In this document: positions 12,200 to 23,251 of the stretch, piece after piece | How positions within the stretch are numbered: position 1 is the stretch's first letter | Layout: each line of letters opens with the position of its first letter | Source: a virus | Strand: one strand, 5' to 3' | IMG/VR virus record: IMGVR_UViG_3300025889_000976 | Span: 1 to 23,372 of that record | Length of the DNA stretch: 23,372 nt | The notes under the pieces: model-generated | What the model was told of the DNA's origin: nothing | Database searches by the model: none | The model's input: the letters and a program-made list of their open reading frames with translations, nothing else | Position numbers and translations under genes: made by a program

Positions 12200-13789
12200 T
12201 TAGGCTTCCAGAGCTTCGATACGGGCGGTGAGTTCCTTGATGGCAGCAACTAGCAGGGGGATGACTTCGGTGTAACGAAGCCCCAGGGATTCGCTATCCG
12301 TTGAATCAACAGCTTCAGGAAGCACGGACTTCACATCCTGAGCAATCAGGAATGATCGACGGATTCCATCCGCATCGGACTTGTATTTGCCAATCACAGA
12401 GCGCAGAGAACCAACCTTAGAAACCGCATTTTTGATCGGCTCAATGATGTCTTTCAAACGCTCGTCAGAAGTAGCAGACCAAGCACTTGCTCCGTCAGCC
12501 ATAGTGACGCCAACATTGCTGGCGTTCATCACAAACAGCGTATTGGATGTGTTGACAGCACCAAACCTCCAATACAGTCCAGCAGTTGCACCAGTGTTGC
12601 GAATTACAATTCCATCTGGCTGGGCAAAGGTCGTGAACAGCGAAAGCCTGCTTGCAAGAGGAGATGATGTATCACCCACCAGCAAATTGCCCGACGCATC
12701 GAGCGTCATCGCTTGGGTGAAGGTGATGGCATTGCCAGCAGTGCCGCTGGGGGCGTTGTACCACTGATGTGCTCCCTGATTCTGCTGATACATCCCTGCG
12801 GCTTGCGTGTTCTTGTAGACGTAATTCCCAGAAGTGTTATAGACTGCGTTGTTAAGGTAAAACGCTTGTCCATACCCAGAAGAACTCGACATCAGCGCAT
12901 TTCCAGATCCAAACTCAATCGCTTTGTACGAGCTATTCCACGCACTCGGCGTAACCCCCACTCCGACGTTGCCGGTCGGATCAACAATGAGCCGCTCGAC
13001 CGGAGTCGTTGAACCAGTGGCAATGATAACGCTTCGCGCAGCACTTGTTCTCGGCTGGATGATCAGGTTTCCGAAGTTGTCGAACGGATACGTTGCTCCG
13101 CCATCGGTGTAGTAGATGGAACAAGCATTAGCGTTTGATATGTAAGACGTTCTTGCTCCACTAGCAGTTCCAGCAATCGCAACGGGTCCTTGAGAATAAA
13201 TCAGATGCGATGCCAACGGACTCCCACCCACGCCCAGCCCCGTGGAGTTCAGGGTCATGGCGGTGCCAGCGACTCCGCCGACGTTCGACCAAGTGGCTAC
13301 GCCGGTAGACGATATCGCATACCGCTCGGAACCATTGACATATAAAAACAACGGAAGCGCATCTCTTTGATAAACAAACGCTCCAGCACTGTTTTGAATT
13401 AAATCAAAGCTAGTTGTGCCAAGTGTGGTTCCATTGCCAGAAATCAGAAGCGCACCTGCGCCACCAACTCCGCCTCTGACATCAATGGTTGCAATCGAAG
13501 CTGCTCGAACAGACAACTGATTGTCTGGCGTCGCCGTCCCAATACCCACCCGATTGTTCGCCGAATCCACCTTCAGGGTGCTGGTGTCCACCGTCAGATC
13601 GCCGCTGATCGTGGCGGAGGCGAGGGTGGCGGTGCCGCTTGCACCAAGCAGTTGATTGAGCGTGACCTTCTTGGTTGTTCCGGTCGCGGCCATTGACGTA
13701 TCGGAAACGTCCACCAACACAAGCGGATCGTTCGCGGGATCGGTAGAAGCTCCGATGCTAGTCAGGGCTGTAATCTTAGAGTCGGCCAT
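12200..13789 (-). CDS. tail fibre with C-terminal S74 intramolecular chaperone
   Basis: A 529-aa fibre-type protein. The N-terminus (MADSKITALTSIGASTDPAN, then DPLVLVDVSD) is a typical virion-attachment opening. The shaft has beta-repeat modules such as NRVGIGTATPDNQLSV and LLVGDTSSPLASRLSL with many Gly/Ser/Asn. Residues 439-529 form a Peptidase_S74 chaperone domain: S441 in SDERLK with K446 form the expected Ser-Lys dyad, followed by helices and FLIAQDVKSVLPEAVD and RYTEVIPLLVAAIKEL, the usual S74 core. The chaperone trimerises the fibre and then cleaves itself near its N-terminus. The gene lies in the middle of the head block rather than after the tail tip. The leader before ATG 13789 shows no Shine-Dalgarno. 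Confidence 0.88.
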   Translation of the reverse strand: MADSKITALTSIGASTDPANDPLVLVDVSDTSMAATGTTKKVTLNQLLGASGTATLASATISGDLTVDTSTLKVDSANNRVGIGTATPDNQLSVRAASIATIDVRGGVGGAGALLISGNGTTLGTTSFDLIQNSAGAFVYQRDALPLFLYVNGSERYAISSTGVATWSNVGGVAGTAMTLNSTGLGVGGSPLASHLIYSQGPVAIAGTASGARTSYISNANACSIYYTDGGATYPFDNFGNLIIQPRTSAARSVIIATGSTTPVERLIVDPTGNVGVGVTPSAWNSSYKAIEFGSGNALMSSSSGYGQAFYLNNAVYNTSGNYVYKNTQAAGMYQQNQGAHQWYNAPSGTAGNAITFTQAMTLDASGNLLVGDTSSPLASRLSLFTTFAQPDGIVIRNTGATAGLYWRFGAVNTSNTLFVMNASNVGVTMADGASAWSATSDERLKDIIEPIKNAVSKVGSLRSVIGKYKSDADGIRRSFLIAQDVKSVLPEAVDSTDSESLGLRYTEVIPLLVAAIKELTARIEALEA

Positions 13790-14475: not shown

Positions 14476-16620
14476 TTAGGCGGTGATGAGGACCTCGGCC
14501 TGAGTCTTATCGCCAGCGGCGGCACCAAACATGATGTCGTACGAGGCCATGTGAGCGCGAGTAGAGCGGCTGTACCAGACCGACAGCAGGACAGAGAGGC
14601 CGTTCTGAGACTCCACGGTGCGCTGCTCAACGAACTCGCCAGCAATCATGCCAACCGGCAGACCAGAGGCGATGGCGATAGCGTCCTGACCGCAAACGAA
14701 GCCGGCAGTATTGGCAATAGCTCCGGTCCAGTCGTTCTGCTCCAGAATGTTATTGAAGCCAAAGAACCCGTTGTTCAGAGGACCAAAACGAGCATCAGGG
14801 AAGGTGTTCGCAGCCGCCGAGAACTGGAGACGGGCCAGATGACCACCATCCAACAAAAGCAACTTCTGGCGGTAGTTCTTAGCGAGAGCCAAGATCGCCG
14901 GGAGATCGCTAGTGTCGAAATTGGCAGCAGCACCAATGGTCGTGCCAGCACCGTAATTAGCCGCAGTCATCACCGCAGTAATCTTCTTGGAAATACCAAG
15001 AGCGAACACATCAGCAGAACCAGCAGCAAGGTCAGCCAAAGCAAACCCCTGATTCAGTTCCTGCTGAGTGACAGTAAACAGCTTGGAAATCTGGTTAACC
15101 GTGACAGAAGTAGCGGCCAACTCGCTGTTGTTCGAAGTCTCAAAGTTGGTGGCATTATCAACGGTCGCGTCGGCACCGCTCTGCACAAACTTCTTAACCT
15201 GCACGGTCGCCCTCGGTCGCAAATTGTCGAGACCAACGGAGCGAGTGAAATTGCCAACCATTGCCAGCTTGGTCCCCATCTCAGTGATGACCGCATCGGC
15301 CAGATAGTCCACCACCAGACCGGCGGCAAACGTATTAGCGTTCTGAGGAGCGATCAGGCGGTTCTGGCGGAGGAGTTCGCTGTGGTTCTCAATCAGGAAC
15401 GCACGACGTTCGGCACCAGCGCGGAGACCCTTGTGCTTCTCCAGCAGAGGATTGCCGAGGTTTTCGATGACGGGACGCACCGGCTCGGGAGCAGGGGCAG
15501 GGGCAGGGGCTTTCATGGCCGCCTCAATCGTCGCCAACTTGGCGAGAACGGAAGCGAGGTCGACGGACGCAGCAGGAGCCGCAGCCGCCACAGTATTAGT
15601 GTCAGACATGTTTGTGTCGGTATTAGGTTGTGTTGGTTGCAGCGTGTTGGTCACGCCATTATCGCCGTCAGCGGATTTGCTGTCGGTCGAAAGTTTTTCG
15701 GTCGAGGTATCACCCTCGGAATCCTGCGCATCGGTTTCGAGTTGCGCGTAAAGTGCTCGGAACCAATCGCGGCCAGCGGCACCTCCCCAGAGGTTAGCCG
15801 CAACATCAGCCGGGGTGTTTGGCTCCGCTTCAAGAAAACGCTCGTTGCGTCCCCACCAAGCATTTGCTTTGCGGATCTTTTGAGGGCTTGGAGCTTCACC
15901 AGCAACGAGGGCTTCGGCTTCATACACGGTCTGTTTCTCAAGACCATCGCCAGCCAATCCTTCTTCGTACTGCTGAAGACCTTTCCGAAGATTATTTTTG
16001 ACCGTCTCAGGAGCGGTCTTTGTAACGGCGCGGGGATGCCATTTTGCAGCTAAAGCCAACTGCTTGACCGGAACATCAACCAGCCCGAAAGCCATAGCCT
16101 CTGCGGTCGTAAACCAAGTTTCTGCTTTCATCGCGGCACGAATGGCTTCTGGAGAACGACCGGTTTTCTTGGCGTAAACCCCAACCAAAACTTGCGCGTG
16201 CTGGTCGAGTGCATCGGCCATTTTCCGCATATCTTCAGCGGTGCCAGCAGTCATGCCGCTGGGATCGTGAATCATCATCAGTGCGGCATCGGCCATTTCA
16301 ACCTTGTCGCCAGCGAGGGCAATGATTGAAGCGATGGAAGCGGCAATGCCAACGACGCGAGTGGTTACCGGGGCATTCCGTCCGCGCAGTTGGTTGTAGA
16401 TGGACAAACCATCCCAGACGTTGCCGCCGGGAGAGTTGATTTCAACAAGCAACGGACCATTGCCAATCTCCTGAAGAACATCGGCAAACTGCTTCGCGGA
16501 AAGACCAGAACCTCCGAACCAATCTTCTCCAATTTGATCGAAAATTTGGACAGTCGCCTGTTCGTTCGCCGCATTTGCGGGAGCGTAGTAAAGCCAATCG
16601 GTTTTCTTTTGCAGGTTCAT
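14476..16620 (-). CDS. prohead protease-major capsid fusion protein
   Basis: A single 714-aa frame joins two functions. Residues 1-190 form a ClpP/S14-type prohead protease: INSPGG 61-66, the oxyanion region, AAS at 93-95 with likely nucleophile Ser95, MMIHDPSG with His118, and ETWFTTAEAMAFGLVD 167-182 carrying the third acid. Residues 190-337 are a linker with WWGRNE and an acidic, low-complexity stretch. Residues 338-714, from an internal Met at base 15609, start with a helical, scaffold-like segment (LASVLAKLATIEAAMKAP, then APAPAPAPEP) and continue as an HK97-fold-type major capsid (GNFTRSVGLDNLRPR, SVTVNQISKLFTVTQQELNQ). Protease, scaffold and capsid are normally separate or lambda C/Nu3/E. 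It starts in an ATGA overlap with the portal. The capsid may also be made from the internal start. Confidence 0.85.
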   Translation of the reverse strand: MNLQKKTDWLYYAPANAANEQATVQIFDQIGEDWFGGSGLSAKQFADVLQEIGNGPLLVEINSPGGNVWDGLSIYNQLRGRNAPVTTRVVGIAASIASIIALAGDKVEMADAALMMIHDPSGMTAGTAEDMRKMADALDQHAQVLVGVYAKKTGRSPEAIRAAMKAETWFTTAEAMAFGLVDVPVKQLALAAKWHPRAVTKTAPETVKNNLRKGLQQYEEGLAGDGLEKQTVYEAEALVAGEAPSPQKIRKANAWWGRNERFLEAEPNTPADVAANLWGGAAGRDWFRALYAQLETDAQDSEGDTSTEKLSTDSKSADGDNGVTNTLQPTQPNTDTNMSDTNTVAAAAPAASVDLASVLAKLATIEAAMKAPAPAPAPEPVRPVIENLGNPLLEKHKGLRAGAERRAFLIENHSELLRQNRLIAPQNANTFAAGLVVDYLADAVITEMGTKLAMVGNFTRSVGLDNLRPRATVQVKKFVQSGADATVDNATNFETSNNSELAATSVTVNQISKLFTVTQQELNQGFALADLAAGSADVFALGISKKITAVMTAANYGAGTTIGAAANFDTSDLPAILALAKNYRQKLLLLDGGHLARLQFSAAANTFPDARFGPLNNGFFGFNNILEQNDWTGAIANTAGFVCGQDAIAIASGLPVGMIAGEFVEQRTVESQNGLSVLLSVWYSRSTRAHMASYDIMFGAAAGDKTQAEVLITA
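15491..15510. repeat. GGGGCA hexamer micro-repeat in capsid linker
   Basis: Three near-perfect copies of GCAGGG plus a partial copy on the plus strand. On the coding strand they encode the Ala-Pro run APAPAPAPEP at the junction of the scaffold-like helix and the capsid domain. Such short GC-rich repeats expand and contract readily by slippage, which would vary linker length by dipeptides without shifting the frame. Confidence 0.7.
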
Positions 16621-18626: not shown

Positions 18627-20486
18627 TCAAGCGTTTGTTTCTGGCGTGATTTGAGCCGAACGCAAATCGCCCCACAACATTGCCATAGCCAACTGCATGA
18701 TTTCGCAATCGTGCAGATGGTCAGGCCAGCGATGGTTGCGCTTGTGCCAAACGTGTTTGATTCGTCCTGCTCGGTTAGCTGTTGGCTTTAGAACGTGAGA
18801 GTCCAGATGCTTCCAGTATTGATCAGGATCGACGCAATAGGCTCCCTCGGCTTGCAGTTTGATGGGCAGAGAGCAAACGGCCCAAGACCCTGCCTCGGAC
18901 GATTGTCGCAAGCGTGAAAGGATATCGCGGAGGTGTTCGGAGTCGAAAACGAGCAACGGCTGTACGACATCAGTCCGCATGGACGTTGAAGTAGAAACGC
19001 CAAATGGATGAATTGAACCAGAACGGGTCGTAAACCTTGCTCCGGTTTCGCGTCCCTTCATGGGTGTCCAACCGATTAGCATTGGCTTACGCAACCCGCC
19101 TTCGGGCGGATAACGCAGTCCGCAGGGATACGAAACTGGATTTACCGAGGTATTTGAGAATCCCGCACAAGCATCGTAAACAGTTTGCGTATCAAAACCG
19201 GAGTCAATGCCTACGTCCATGTCGTGAACGCCAAGTTCTACTTGGATGCGGCGAAGTGCAGCGAAATCGTCAGCGTGACCTGCGGCCACTAGGCGGCTAT
19301 TGCCTCCCTGCCATTCGCGGCAGACCCACCAGAAATACGGAGCCGCAGCTTGAACATCTGCCGTGAGGTATCTCCTAGCCTCGTTTAGTGGAGCATCCGA
19401 GATTACTTCAACGCGATCCACGGTGCCGTCTTGGTTTTCCCAAGGCTCGGCTAACATTCCGTTGATAAATCCCTGCAGTCCCATCATCGACTGCTTGGCT
19501 TCCAAGAACGCTACAGCCAAATGCCCCCAAGTACATTTGCGGTCTGGGCTGTAAAGCGAAGACAGGTGATACGAACGAATGGACGGTAACGCATTCGGAT
19601 TTTCTGCGATCCATTTACCGTGACGCAAGGCAGCTACCTTTTGTGCGTCCGAAATCTTTCCCTTACAAAGCTGGCATTCGTAAAAAGCAGACGAGCGAAC
19701 CGCAGCCCAGTCGTATTTGCCGTCTTCGGTTTTGACTCCGTCCCATTTGATTTGTCGCCATTCAAGCCGAATCAACTCGCGGCAGTGTGGGCAGGGTATG
19801 TAGTAACGACGCTGGTCTCCGCGCAGGTATCTTTGCCAAATACGGTTTTCCGTAGTTGTCGGTGTAGATGTGAAGAACGCCTTTGAACTAGAAAACGCTT
19901 TGAGTCGCTGTTCTGCTAAATCCAAAGCGTCGGCTTCTTTAGAAGTTGCATCCGCAAACTTGTCGATCTCGTCTCCAACGAGAACTCGCACCGGACGGGA
20001 AGACAGATTTGCGGGGCTATTTGATCCGATGAATGTCAGCGTCGATTTGTCAAAGTGCTGTTCCAGATTGGTGAGCTTGTCTTTGTCCAACGGAAAGTGG
20101 GCAACCATCGTAGGGCTATCCTCAAGAAACGGAAGCCAACGAGATTTAGAAAACGATCGGGCAAGACTTTCGGTCGGCATCAGCCACAAAGCGGGTGATG
20201 GCTCGTTGTCGATTAGCCAAGCGAGACCGGCCATGAGCGTGGTCGTTTTGCTGGTTTGCGATCCCCAACAAAGTGTAAGTTCCGATACGCCAGGATCTTT
20301 CCATGCCTCCAGTGGTTCACGCACATACGGACGGACCGAAGTAGAATATGGACCGGGATGCTCGGTCTGGCGTTGAGTCAACTTTAGGTTTGCCTCTGCC
20401 CATTCAACGACTGTTTGCTTGGGTGTTGGCCGGTAAAGACCGCGACGCAATTCAAGCAACGAAAGCTGTAGATCGGAAAGCGTCAT
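18627..20486 (-). CDS. terL: terminase large subunit, GpA family
   Basis: A 619-aa packaging motor read from ATG 20486, which overlaps the preceding stop as ATGA. An upstream GTG at 20507 is possible but less likely. Numbered from 20486, the ATPase has a Walker A-like GSQTSKTT (75-82), a motif with LWLMPTE, and Walker B-like VRVLVGDE (167-173) followed by IDKF. A zinc-ribbon-like pair CPHC (232-235) and CQLC (271-274) is characteristic of the GpA family. The C-terminal nuclease half includes LTADVQAAAPYFWWVCREW, a MDVGIDSGFDTQTVYDA segment and ITPETNA at the end. It cuts concatemeric DNA and drives packaging with the portal, and works with the small terminase encoded four genes upstream. Confidence 0.93.
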   Translation of the reverse strand: MTLSDLQLSLLELRRGLYRPTPKQTVVEWAEANLKLTQRQTEHPGPYSTSVRPYVREPLEAWKDPGVSELTLCWGSQTSKTTTLMAGLAWLIDNEPSPALWLMPTESLARSFSKSRWLPFLEDSPTMVAHFPLDKDKLTNLEQHFDKSTLTFIGSNSPANLSSRPVRVLVGDEIDKFADATSKEADALDLAEQRLKAFSSSKAFFTSTPTTTENRIWQRYLRGDQRRYYIPCPHCRELIRLEWRQIKWDGVKTEDGKYDWAAVRSSAFYECQLCKGKISDAQKVAALRHGKWIAENPNALPSIRSYHLSSLYSPDRKCTWGHLAVAFLEAKQSMMGLQGFINGMLAEPWENQDGTVDRVEVISDAPLNEARRYLTADVQAAAPYFWWVCREWQGGNSRLVAAGHADDFAALRRIQVELGVHDMDVGIDSGFDTQTVYDACAGFSNTSVNPVSYPCGLRYPPEGGLRKPMLIGWTPMKGRETGARFTTRSGSIHPFGVSTSTSMRTDVVQPLLVFDSEHLRDILSRLRQSSEAGSWAVCSLPIKLQAEGAYCVDPDQYWKHLDSHVLKPTANRAGRIKHVWHKRNHRWPDHLHDCEIMQLAMAMLWGDLRSAQITPETNA

Positions 20487-21361
20487 TTGCGTCTGCGTTT
20501 CAAACACATTCCGTACTCGTTGTTTTGCTTTTGAACAACCAGATCTGGCTTCCGTATCAACTTGTGTTTCTTGAACGGAGTATAGTCAACGTGATGGTGC
20601 CAGCGACCGAATTTAAACTTTACCTCTGCAACATCTGGATGTTCACGCACAAGCATTTGTGATTTGTCCATTGTGCCATGCTTGTAAAGTTCGTCTGTAT
20701 TTCCGCCCTTGATTGTTTGCGTGCGAAGTTTGCCCTGCAAAAACGCATTGAACTGAATTGTACACCATCCCGCTTTTAGCATATCCAGCGACATAATGGT
20801 GTCTTCATTGTATCTTCCTCTCCATCTAAACGGAACATCGTTGCGTATTAAATTACAGGAATAAATGCGCGTATTTGTAATGAACGCAGGTATTGCAGAC
20901 GCACCAAACGCAAACATTGCATAGTTTGGTCCAGCCATCGCAACGTTTGTATAGCGTAACACAAAGTCTTCCATTGCTTTCCAAATAGAAGGCGATGTGG
21001 TTTCTATGCGTACATTTTTGGTCATGCGATAAAATGCCTTAATGTTATCGTCCATGATCCAATGCCACTTGTGTCCTTGAGACACAGAATGGTCCCAAAT
21101 AAAATTACGAGCAGGTCCAGATCCAGTGCTTTTGCTTAAACCATGAGCGTCGCAAAGTTGGTATTTTCCTTTGTATGACATGTCCAACTCAATCACGTTG
21201 GTTAACAATCCCATTTTCTGAACCGCAGCTTTGTATAGAGCAACTTCCTGGGGTTCTACGACGATATTGTGCTGAACGCCCATTGCCGTGAGGGCTTTGG
21301 ACGTAATCATGTATTCGTGCCTTCCCTTGCTGGGGATGTACAAAGGAAACTGCGGCTTCAT
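20483..21361 (-). CDS. TET-associated glycosyltransferase (TAGT) family protein
   Basis: A 292-aa protein matching the TAGT family in sequence: opening FPLYIPSKGR (5-14), a strand with NIVVEPQEVALYK, RNFIWDHS, catalytic-type WHWIMDDNIKAF with DDN at 104-106, RYTNVAMAGPNYAMFA (136-151), NTRIYSCNLIRND (163-175), WRGRYNEDTIMSLDML with NED at 185-187, and GWCTIQFNAFLQ and KGGNTDELY further on. Family members are encoded by phages with TET/JBP oxygenases and are associated with sugars on modified DNA bases. The DDN motif is the metal/nucleotide-sugar site of GT-A-type enzymes. It starts and ends in ATGA overlaps with neighbours. No TET/JBP enzyme is in the window. The exact sugar and base are unknown. 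It is AT-richer than the terminase genes. Confidence 0.85.
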   Translation of the reverse strand: MKPQFPLYIPSKGRHEYMITSKALTAMGVQHNIVVEPQEVALYKAAVQKMGLLTNVIELDMSYKGKYQLCDAHGLSKSTGSGPARNFIWDHSVSQGHKWHWIMDDNIKAFYRMTKNVRIETTSPSIWKAMEDFVLRYTNVAMAGPNYAMFAFGASAIPAFITNTRIYSCNLIRNDVPFRWRGRYNEDTIMSLDMLKAGWCTIQFNAFLQGKLRTQTIKGGNTDELYKHGTMDKSQMLVREHPDVAEVKFKFGRWHHHVDYTPFKKHKLIRKPDLVVQKQNNEYGMCLKRRRK

Positions 21362-22008
21362 TTCTTCTTAGGTTTTCCTCCCCAACTATTGTTGGAAAAA
21401 TGGGCACAAAGCATCTCAGGAGGAAATTGCGACTTATCACTAAAGATCCCAATTTTTTGATTTCGCTTTGGAGCCATAAATCCGTTGTATGGATAGAATG
21501 TCTTTGTGGGGAGATGTCGCACATCTTCCCTTCCAAATAATACTGACGAGAAGAATGCAGGACCAGTTTGCACAGAAGCCGCCCTCCCTTGATGTGCAAA
21601 ATACCATTTTGGAAGTGCTTTTATCAAATCAGTCATTGCTGGATGATTTGAAGGGCTTCCGAAAATTGCAGATTCAAATGACGTTGACGATCTTTTACCA
21701 GCAAATGGCCTAGGATCATCAAGCAGACAATCCATTGGTTTTAGCGGCATTACGTCTGTGTCTACATAAATGCCGCCCAATTTCCAGACAGCAACATACC
21801 GTGTTATGTCAGAACGCGCTGCGTAACAAGAAGCGTTTAGCCAAATGTTCTTGAACGCGGTCGGGAGCAACTCTAAACAATCTTTGTCGTAAAGTGTAAC
21901 GAACTGCCAAGTTGGATGCAGTGCTTTAAACTCAAGCCACCATTTTTCAAATACTGGTGGCATCGGTTTGTTATCCCAACCGATTCGTATAAACCGTTTT
22001 GGAATCAT
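21358..22008 (-). CDS. glycosyltransferase with DXD motif, GT32/OCH1-like
   Basis: A 216-aa protein that fits the sugar-binding DXD-containing GT32 family: start MIPKRFIRIGWDNKPMPP, LHPTWQFVTLYD (30-41), AARSDITRYVAVWKLGGIYV (63-82), then DTD (83-85) and PLKPMDCLLDD. The C-terminal part includes FESAIFGSPSNHPAM and MLCAHFSNNSWGG. Family members transfer sugars from nucleotide-activated donors using the DTD motif to bind metal. In bacteria and phages they modify polysaccharides, proteins or sometimes nucleic acid bases. It begins in an ATGA overlap with the ParB-like gene and ends in another with the TAGT-like gene, so it probably acts with that enzyme, for example adding a second sugar. That link is inferred from co-location. 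Composition is AT-rich. Confidence 0.82.
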   Translation of the reverse strand: MIPKRFIRIGWDNKPMPPVFEKWWLEFKALHPTWQFVTLYDKDCLELLPTAFKNIWLNASCYAARSDITRYVAVWKLGGIYVDTDVMPLKPMDCLLDDPRPFAGKRSSTSFESAIFGSPSNHPAMTDLIKALPKWYFAHQGRAASVQTGPAFFSSVLFGREDVRHLPTKTFYPYNGFMAPKRNQKIGIFSDKSQFPPEMLCAHFSNNSWGGKPKKK

Positions 22009-22664
22009 TCGTTTAGGATTTCAGCGTTATCCGCTGCCCATTCTTGATCTTTTAGACTGCGACGTTCCTTTTCTGGGAACCAAATCGACTTTGTCTTTTG
22101 AGTGAACGACTGTCTGATAGCGGCAAAGAACCTAGCTACGTCTTCCTCCGTATCAAAGTTTACAACGATCTTGCGGTAGCATGGTTCCTCGGCTTCGTAT
22201 TCTGGCATTCCGTCCCACTCTTTTTCGGGATCGGTTTCTCCGGTTTGAATCTCCAAAAATAAGGAGGCAATTTCTGCATCCGAAAATCCGGTTAGACCAA
22301 GATCAATCCCATCTTCCCTGATGGATTCAATTTCGGACTTAAGCATCTGTTCGTCCCAACCAGCGTTCAGTGCGAGTTTGTTGTCCGCAATGACGTAAGC
22401 TCGGATTTGGGCTGGAGTAAGGTGACCAAGACGAATGCATGGAACCTTGTCCATTTCCAGCTTACGAGCCGCCATGACACGACCGTGACCTGCAACGATG
22501 GTCCCGTCTTTGTCGATTAGTACTGGATTGGTAAATCCGAACTCGCGTATGCTTCCCGCAATCTGTGAAACCTGTTCCTCTGAATGAGTGCGCGAGTTTC
22601 TTGCGTATGGGATTAAGTCTACAACGGCAAGGTATTCCAGTTTGGTTTGATTGGTTTTTGTCAT
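22005..22664 (-). CDS. ParB/sulfiredoxin-fold domain protein
   Basis: A 219-aa protein starting at ATG 22664 in an ATGA overlap with the small terminase; an upstream in-frame ATG at 22715 lies inside that gene and is not favoured. Residues 9-100 form a ParB N-terminal-type domain: LIPYARNSRTHSEEQVSQIA (18-37), IREFGFTNPVLIDKDG, TIVAGHGRVMAARKLEMDKV (55-74) and QIRAYVIADNKLALNAGW. The GHGR motif and the NxRTHSxEQVxxI segment are typical of phage and modification-associated members. The C-terminal domain has YRKIVVNFDTEEDVARFFAA and QKTKSIWFPEKE, a feature of phage ParB-like proteins. Possible activities include nuclease, DNA binding or nucleotide hydrolysis. It sits between packaging and glycosyltransferase genes, suggesting a role in DNA modification or marking. 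Confidence 0.85.
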   Translation of the reverse strand: MTKTNQTKLEYLAVVDLIPYARNSRTHSEEQVSQIAGSIREFGFTNPVLIDKDGTIVAGHGRVMAARKLEMDKVPCIRLGHLTPAQIRAYVIADNKLALNAGWDEQMLKSEIESIREDGIDLGLTGFSDAEIASLFLEIQTGETDPEKEWDGMPEYEAEEPCYRKIVVNFDTEEDVARFFAAIRQSFTQKTKSIWFPEKERRSLKDQEWAADNAEILNE

Positions 22665-23251
22665 TTCCAAGGGTTGGTTGAGTGAAGCGTTGAAAGGCAG
22701 ACTTCTTGGACCCAACGGTCAAGTTCACGTTCAGCGTGTTCTGGATCATGCGGAGCAATACGACCCGCTAGTTGCTTTGGCATGGCTTTAATGAGCGTAG
22801 CTACGGCTCCGTCATGTTCAGACATTACCTTGCGAACCCAATCACCTGAAACCAACTGGCGTTCGCGTTCTAGCAGTCCAAGCACTTCTTCCCGAGCTTG
22901 CGTGAGATTACGCGCAGCTTGTGCATGGATTGAAACAAGCCTTCCGCTGTCAGGTTGACCGTTCTTTAAGGCTCTGGCGGCAAGTGCATAAGCGGCGCGT
23001 TCGATGGTCTTTTGTCTTACATACGCGCCTTGAGGACTATCATCAGCAGCGGAAACGTGATCTGGCTCGGTAGCTTCAGGAGGACGAAATGGTCCGGAAG
23101 TGTTTGTCGCAGACGGAGGACGCTTTTTAGCACTTGAACCGCGCCAAGAATCCGCCGCCTCGGGCGTGGTCAATGGCATCCCTCGGGCAACAAGCTTGGA
23201 GACCTGCCCACGCGACAGCCCAGAGTATCGGCAATAGTCCGCTTGAGTCAT
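22661..23251 (-). CDS. probable terminase small subunit
   Basis: A 196-aa protein read from ATG 23251, with an in-frame TGA 6 bases upstream that fixes the start. The N-terminus (MTQADYCRYSGLSRGQVSKL, then VARGMPLTTPEAADSWR) is a helix-turn-helix of the kind found in Nu1-type DNA-recognition subunits. A polar, proline-rich linker (residues 38-75) follows, then a long helical region (RQKTIERAAYALAARALKNG and LTQAREEVLGLLERERQLVS) ending with AERELDRWVQEVCL. This build, together with the following terminase large subunit four genes later, supports a terminase small subunit that recognises the packaging site. No Shine-Dalgarno is obvious before the ATG. It overlaps the ParB-like gene start by ATGA. 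Confidence 0.72.
   Translation of the reverse strand: MTQADYCRYSGLSRGQVSKLVARGMPLTTPEAADSWRGSSAKKRPPSATNTSGPFRPPEATEPDHVSAADDSPQGAYVRQKTIERAAYALAARALKNGQPDSGRLVSIHAQAARNLTQAREEVLGLLERERQLVSGDWVRKVMSEHDGAVATLIKAMPKQLAGRIAPHDPEHAERELDRWVQEVCLSTLHSTNPWK

Follow-up and report, generated by a model that had tools for sequence, protein, structure and literature searches.

The window analysed here, a linear stretch of 23,372 bases from the IMG/VR virus record IMGVR_UViG_3300025889_000976, represents a fragment and not the complete genome of a tailed phage with a lambda-type portal and GpA terminase. On the minus strand, five genes follow each other head to tail, encoding the small terminase (TerS), a ParB-fold protein, a GT32-like glycosyltransferase, a TAGT glycosyltransferase and the large terminase (TerL; Table 1). 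Judged by sequence comparison, the ParB–TAGT pair recurs in hundreds of viruses, E. coli prophages included. New here, and read from the same kind of comparison, is that the C-terminal module of the ParB protein is the part fused directly to TAGT in large phages (Aeh1, Kuja, POP12). As a whole, the genes are read, with slightly better than even confidence, as a late, post-replicative, ParB-guided DNA-glycosylation cassette.

The gene run and its recurrence

A preliminary description, made from the letters of the window, had named the three non-packaging genes ParB-fold, GT32-like and TAGT, and in profile searches each exceeded its Pfam cut-off. The protein of 292 amino acids (aa) matched the TAGT family PF20691 over the full domain with 137.5 bits (cut-off 27.5), the 216-aa protein matched the GT32 family PF04488 with 44.7 bits (cut-off 23), and the ParB-fold protein matched PF02195 with 29.1 bits (cut-off 26.3). 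Reading of the junctions confirmed the placement between TerS and TerL, with ATGA overlaps at TerS/ParB, ParB/GT32 and GT32/TAGT, and also at TAGT/TerL provided that translation of TerL begins with the ATG at 20486. The overlapping genes of the run are probably translationally coupled. A chance origin of the arrangement was excluded because more than 100 other loci repeat it. Where measurable, TAGT and GT32 are under purifying selection, with a ratio of nonsynonymous to synonymous substitution rates (dN/dS) of about 0.02–0.04 in the pair L004/L005 (dS high, unsaturated).

Table 1. Features of the gene run in the window.
Feature	Position	Strand	Evidence or remark
TerS, small terminase, 196 aa; heads the putatively coupled run	22661-23251	-	phrog_57, E 2e-8
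ParB-fold protein, 219 aa from ATG overlapping the TerS stop	22005-22664	-	PF02195; phrog_620, E 1e-57
C-terminal module of ParB-fold protein (EWDGMPEY...TQKTKSIWFP, about residues 147-219)	22008-22226	-	conserved in A2
GT32-like glycosyltransferase, 216 aa	21358-22008	-	PF04488, E 2e-11
DTD (DXD) motif of GT32-like protein, residues 83-85	21754-21762	-	invariant in 12 homologues
TAGT glycosyltransferase, 292 aa	20483-21361	-	PF20691, E 7e-40; phrog_842, E 1e-47
DDN motif of TAGT, residues 104-106	21044-21052	-	invariant in 27 TAGT sequences
NED motif of TAGT, residues 185-187	20801-20809	-	invariant in 27 TAGT sequences
TerL, GpA type, 626 aa from GTG	18627-20507	-	GpA ATPase PF05876, E 4e-64

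Viral contigs were searched with TAGT, GT32 and ParB separately, and bacterial genomes with TAGT. Domain-bounded profiles were used; an iterative profile had mixed GT32, ParB and TAGT through fused open reading frames (ORFs). A ParB-fold protein was found in 145 of 164 TAGT loci, and among the 118 non-redundant loci that had 700 or more bases of upstream sequence, ParB was directly upstream of TAGT or fused to it in 105. When the search started from ParB, TAGT was present in 66 of 68 new loci (from the best 80 matches), a biased sample in that its seeds were TAGT-linked ParBs and some records overlap the TAGT set. GT32 occurred in 21 of the 164 TAGT loci, always together with TAGT (21/21), and ParB was present in all 21 except two cut at the contig end.

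Of the 67 non-redundant loci with good flanks, at least 47 had a terminase gene no more than 5 kb away; the count is a lower bound, only some terminase families having been modelled. The window and locus L010 share TAGTs that are 79% identical and TerLs that are 43% identical; for L014, the values are 74% and 22%, and the similarity of the L016 TerL to that of the window is undetectable. Since the terminases diverge widely while the cassette stays alike, the cassette moves between phages and keeps its place. In the haloarchaeal tailed virus HHTV-2, a ParB–TAGT pair (L292:4196-5858) lies about 2.9 kb upstream of the large terminase gene.

Domain structure of the ParB-fold protein and TAGT

The AlphaFold2 model of the ParB-fold protein (predicted local distance difference test score, pLDDT, of 87) resembles CTP-binding ParB/Noc/KorB with Z of about 13. 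With 24.9 bits, the protein fell below the cut-off of 58.45 of the NCBIfam partition-protein model TIGR00180 and is, therefore, described as ParB-fold only and not as a partition protein. It consists of two parts, a ParB_N core (about residues 1-145) and the C-terminal module, whose signature in ParB proteins is EWxGMPEF...TxKTKSIWFP. In the TAGTs of the phages Aeh1, POP12, henriette, PTm1 and Kuja and of two Vibrio phages, this module is found as an N-terminal extension (E 1e-8 to 6e-19), and the same is true of several prophage ORFs (e.g., L106, L112, L114 and L120). Thus, the module occurs in two settings, as part of TAGT or joined to a ParB core encoded just upstream of TAGT. Fusions of ParB and TAGT in a single ORF also exist, as in L096 and, less surely because of ambiguous bases, L022. 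In L035:3218-4525, one 435-aa ORF fuses GT32 with the ParB-fold protein and is followed by TAGT and then a UDP-xylose-synthase-like gene.

TAGTs of a second class, represented by sequences from E. coli, Lactobacillus and HHTV-2, are paired with a different ParB module. The module class tracks the TAGT class: class I occurred with module 1 in 131 cases and class II, which is small and includes the sequences that built its own profile, with module 2 in 5, and crossed combinations numbered 0. The WxGMPE segment had a pLDDT of about 90 in the fused model versus about 60 in the lone ParB model, a hint that this segment may pack on TAGT, taken from models that give no inter-domain error and differ in their alignments. 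The ParB core is also common to phage fusions of ParB with N6/N4 DNA methyltransferases (e.g., Vibrio phages 1.213.O and D71; E about 1e-53) and, thus, repeatedly joins DNA-modifying enzymes. These fusions differ from the cassette in that a methyltransferase replaces TAGT and the KTKSIWFP module is absent.

The fold of TAGT was approached through a homologue of the window protein, the fused ParB–TAGT of L096, whose model (pLDDT of 91) shows a GT-A fold with Z of 14 to GT-A GalNAc-transferases; comparison of the TAGT sequence with solved structures gave no match. In the fold searches, most of the signal came from the ParB core and the GT-A domain. The DDN motif may be the metal/donor site, by analogy with DXD. 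In Lactobacillus phage phiLdb (L291:848-1713), where the pair stands at the start of the genome, two overlapping ORFs immediately behind ParB make up TAGT; either a frameshift or a sequencing error would account for the split.

Late-operon position and distribution in Escherichia coli

The lambda-like record G051 (48 kb) has the order antiterminator Q, holin, endolysin, further genes, ParB, TAGT, TerS and TerL. Escherichia phage vB_EcoS-683R6, a Rac-family element, carries an integrase, a repressor, Q, lysis genes and trkG, followed by ParB, TAGT, one small ORF, TerS and TerL (ParB–TAGT stretch at L288:35487-37203). Lactobacillus phage phi jlb1 shows the order ParB–TAGT–TerS–TerL. The preliminary description had also proposed that glycosylation is coupled to packaging or protects the DNA from host restriction. 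Coupling to packaging is at most a possibility; the position beside the terminase fits ordinary late-operon expression.

The ParB–TAGT stretch of vB_EcoS-683R6 was matched over at least 80% of its length in 885 of 5,426 complete E. coli genomes, i.e., about one in six, and the question of its function can, thus, be tested in E. coli. Rac-family prophages of many E. coli genomes have the intact order trkG–ynaK–TAGT–TerS–TerL, in which the second gene of the pair is named 'GREB1-related protein' by the Prokaryotic Genome Annotation Pipeline (PGAP). In K-12 MG1655, only an 87-codon ynaK is left between trkG and ydaY (L293:3859-4122); ynaK of K-12 is, therefore, a truncated remnant of the cassette ParB gene and gains an explanation. 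In some strains, e.g., R2, ynaK is broken and TAGT intact. E. coli strain 357900 (L294:1-654) carries two enterotoxin-annotated genes in place of trkG just upstream of ParB–TAGT, so this slot seems to be a cargo site.

Probable acceptor, proposed mode of action and further genes of the window

The glycosylation role assigned in the preliminary description holds up, and DNA, which it named as the target, is a rather probable acceptor of the sugar. The support is indirect and comes from two kinds of fusion, of the ParB module with TAGT in T4-like and Ackermannviridae phages and of the ParB core with DNA methyltransferases in other phages. Within PF20691, the T2/T6 enzyme, of GT-A type and with a known acceptor, a DNA sugar, glucosylates glucosyl-hydroxymethylcytosine in DNA (PMC13216743, PMC13390438). 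The T6 enzyme is a remote relative, with 38 bits to PF20691; it lacks the ParB partner and the module, and its gene lies directly behind a 246-aa ORF, read here as dCMP hydroxymethylase. In contrast, the window TAGT is ParB-linked and embedded between terminase genes, and the fragment contains no dCMP-hydroxymethylase-type gene. The TAGT domains of Aeh1, POP12, Kuja, PTm1 and henriette 12B8 are closer (about 50% identical) and bear the same module fused N-terminally. These are large phages whose TAGTs lack the ParB_N core, and no terminase gene was present in the 6–8 kb flanks viewed. All five isolates possess a gene of the thymidylate-synthase family, a family that takes in dCMP/dUMP hydroxymethylases and from which ordinary thymidylate synthase was not separated.

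Three points weigh against the reading as a DNA-glycosylation cassette. No phage enzyme making a hydroxylated base recurred with the cassette in the searches made, most of the viral records searched are fragments, and homology does not guarantee a DNA acceptor since the animal TAGT relative GREB1 is reported to O-GlcNAcylate a protein (cited in PMC12645433). In the classical pathway, the hydroxymethyl-pyrimidine that TAGT and GT32 glycosylate would be made by a TET/JBP oxygenase or by a dCMP/dUMP hydroxymethylase whose gene lies beyond the 23-kb fragment. The link to TET/JBP phages is what defined the TAGT family (Iyer et al., as reported in PMC4111573), the large TAGT isolates have the thymidylate-synthase-family gene, and a fragment such as the window may miss a distant gene. 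Nevertheless, this pathway is unlikely. The thymidylate-synthase family was absent from the window and was detected in 1 of about 50 contigs with the cassette, several of them 30–69 kb long, in searches in which positive controls matched. TET/JBP (PF12851) gave 0 matches in 28 + 50 records or genomes of relatives, and 0 in the 299 genomes of one phylum intended as a positive control; because no positive control matched in any search, this absence is suggestive only. No recurrent base hydroxylase was among the 25 Pfam families listed for each of two relatives 61 and 48 kb long, and the annotation of a Rac-family relative lists neither TET/JBP nor a hydroxymethylase in the 50 kb read. The cassette, thus, shares its glycosyltransferase family with the TET/JBP–TAGT hypermodification systems and differs from them in that these searches found no TET/JBP. 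The TET/JBP frame in which the preliminary description had placed the genes is weak. The characterised TAGT, that of T2/T6, acts on hydroxymethylcytosine of thymidylate-synthase-family origin and not on TET products (PMC13216743).

It is also unlikely that TAGT and GT32 glycosylate a phage or host protein, with terminase, portal, capsid, a host factor and ParB as candidates. Protein glycosylation would fit GREB1, described as a TAGT orthologue (PMC4111573) and with the estrogen receptor as its reported O-GlcNAc target, the PGAP name of the E. coli homologue, and the top structural matches of the TAGT model, a set of peptide-modifying GalNAc-transferases, although a function cannot be read from the fold alone. 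However, the ParB module is fused to TAGT in phages with thymidylate-synthase-family genes, the ParB core is fused to DNA methyltransferases, and the cassette passes between phages whose terminases and portals are unrelated. Least probable is an alteration of cell-surface sugars (serotype conversion) or of a small nucleotide metabolite during host takeover, with ParB as a passenger: the O-antigen or capsule is often the target of phage glycosyltransferases, GT32-type enzymes are common in glycan clusters and some relatives have further GT4/GT9-like genes, yet no flippase-like or other membrane partner was identified among the recurrent neighbours, ParB is paired with or fused to TAGT, and the cassette occupies a late-operon place beside the terminase and not a lysogenic-conversion site. 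A possible but doubtful alternative on the side of DNA is that TAGT, guided by ParB, attaches the sugar directly to a canonical base (or to an unsuspected acceptor), late and targeted to a sequence or to concatemers in temperate phages, with no hydroxymethyl precursor and with GT32 extending the sugar. ParB-fold proteins would then serve phage DNA-modifying enzymes (methyltransferases, TAGTs) as general adaptors, with C-terminal parts that can be exchanged.

Cytosine-C5 methyltransferase (PF00145), found in only 4 of 21 long cassette contigs, was rejected as the enzyme that regularly makes the substrate. ORF003c of RB69, an arabinosyltransferase candidate, was considered as a possible TAGT and rejected, as the RB69 record has no PF20691 match and a GT-B fold has been described (PMC6024577). 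Serratia phage eta, with a ParB homologue and an allegedly hypermodified guanine, was dropped as a lead, no modified base having been detected by high-performance liquid chromatography (PMC3918226). The ParB–TAGT relative G012 (61 kb, L052-L055) also matched PTPS (QueD family), PAPS reductase and a GT4-type glycosyltransferase; a 7-deazaguanine-like pathway in this record is possible.

With regard to the donor, NAD-dependent epimerase/dehydratase proteins lie beside the cassettes of L024, L027, L028 and L035, two of them resembling UDP-xylose synthase by eye, and a cytidylyltransferase-like protein lies beside the cassette in L019 and others. This fits a nucleotide-sugar as donor, possibly a pentose in some phages.

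In the ParB-guided DNA-glycosylation cassette as proposed, TAGT would act as a metal-dependent GT-A enzyme that moves a sugar from a nucleotide-sugar onto phage DNA. The ParB-fold protein would be its dedicated partner, its nucleotide-switch core and TAGT-matched module bringing the enzyme to DNA; this guiding role is held with even confidence. GT32 may be an optional accessory enzyme that adds a second or different sugar, to which a little less than an even chance is given. The two-sugar product suggested in the preliminary description is plausible and no more, since GT32 is present in just 21 of 164 loci. The modification would be placed on concatemers shortly before packaging, and late-only expression would leave the lysogen chromosome unmodified. 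The sugars could shield the phage genome from restriction in the next host, a role for which the case is evenly balanced. Late, post-replicative modification just before packaging is also the scheme of com–mom of the temperate phage Mu. The parallel to the cassette is one of functional outline; enzymes, chemistry and control differ, and no homology is claimed.

Hypermodified DNA in a temperate phage without harm to the lysogen has been regarded as a conceptual problem (PMC3918226), which late-only expression would solve. Among 753 phage genomes with homologues of T-even-type glucosyltransferases, 288 have TAGT without a classical alpha- or beta-glucosyltransferase and may encode novel transferases (PMC13216743). 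For many such TAGTs, a ParB-fold partner is now seen to be near-obligate; they also have a matched module, a GT32 as an option and a fixed late-operon place in temperate phages.

Further genes of the window include a 714-aa ORF (14476-16620) with a ClpP-like protease domain at residues 54-182, whose long C-terminal part is probably the major capsid protein, i.e., a protease–capsid fusion. A 529-aa tail-type protein (12200-13789) ends in a C-terminal intramolecular chaperone domain (Peptidase_S74). At the fragment edge (3-1623), a DUF2800/PD-(D/E)XK exonuclease adjoins a RecT annealing protein, forming a phage recombination pair.

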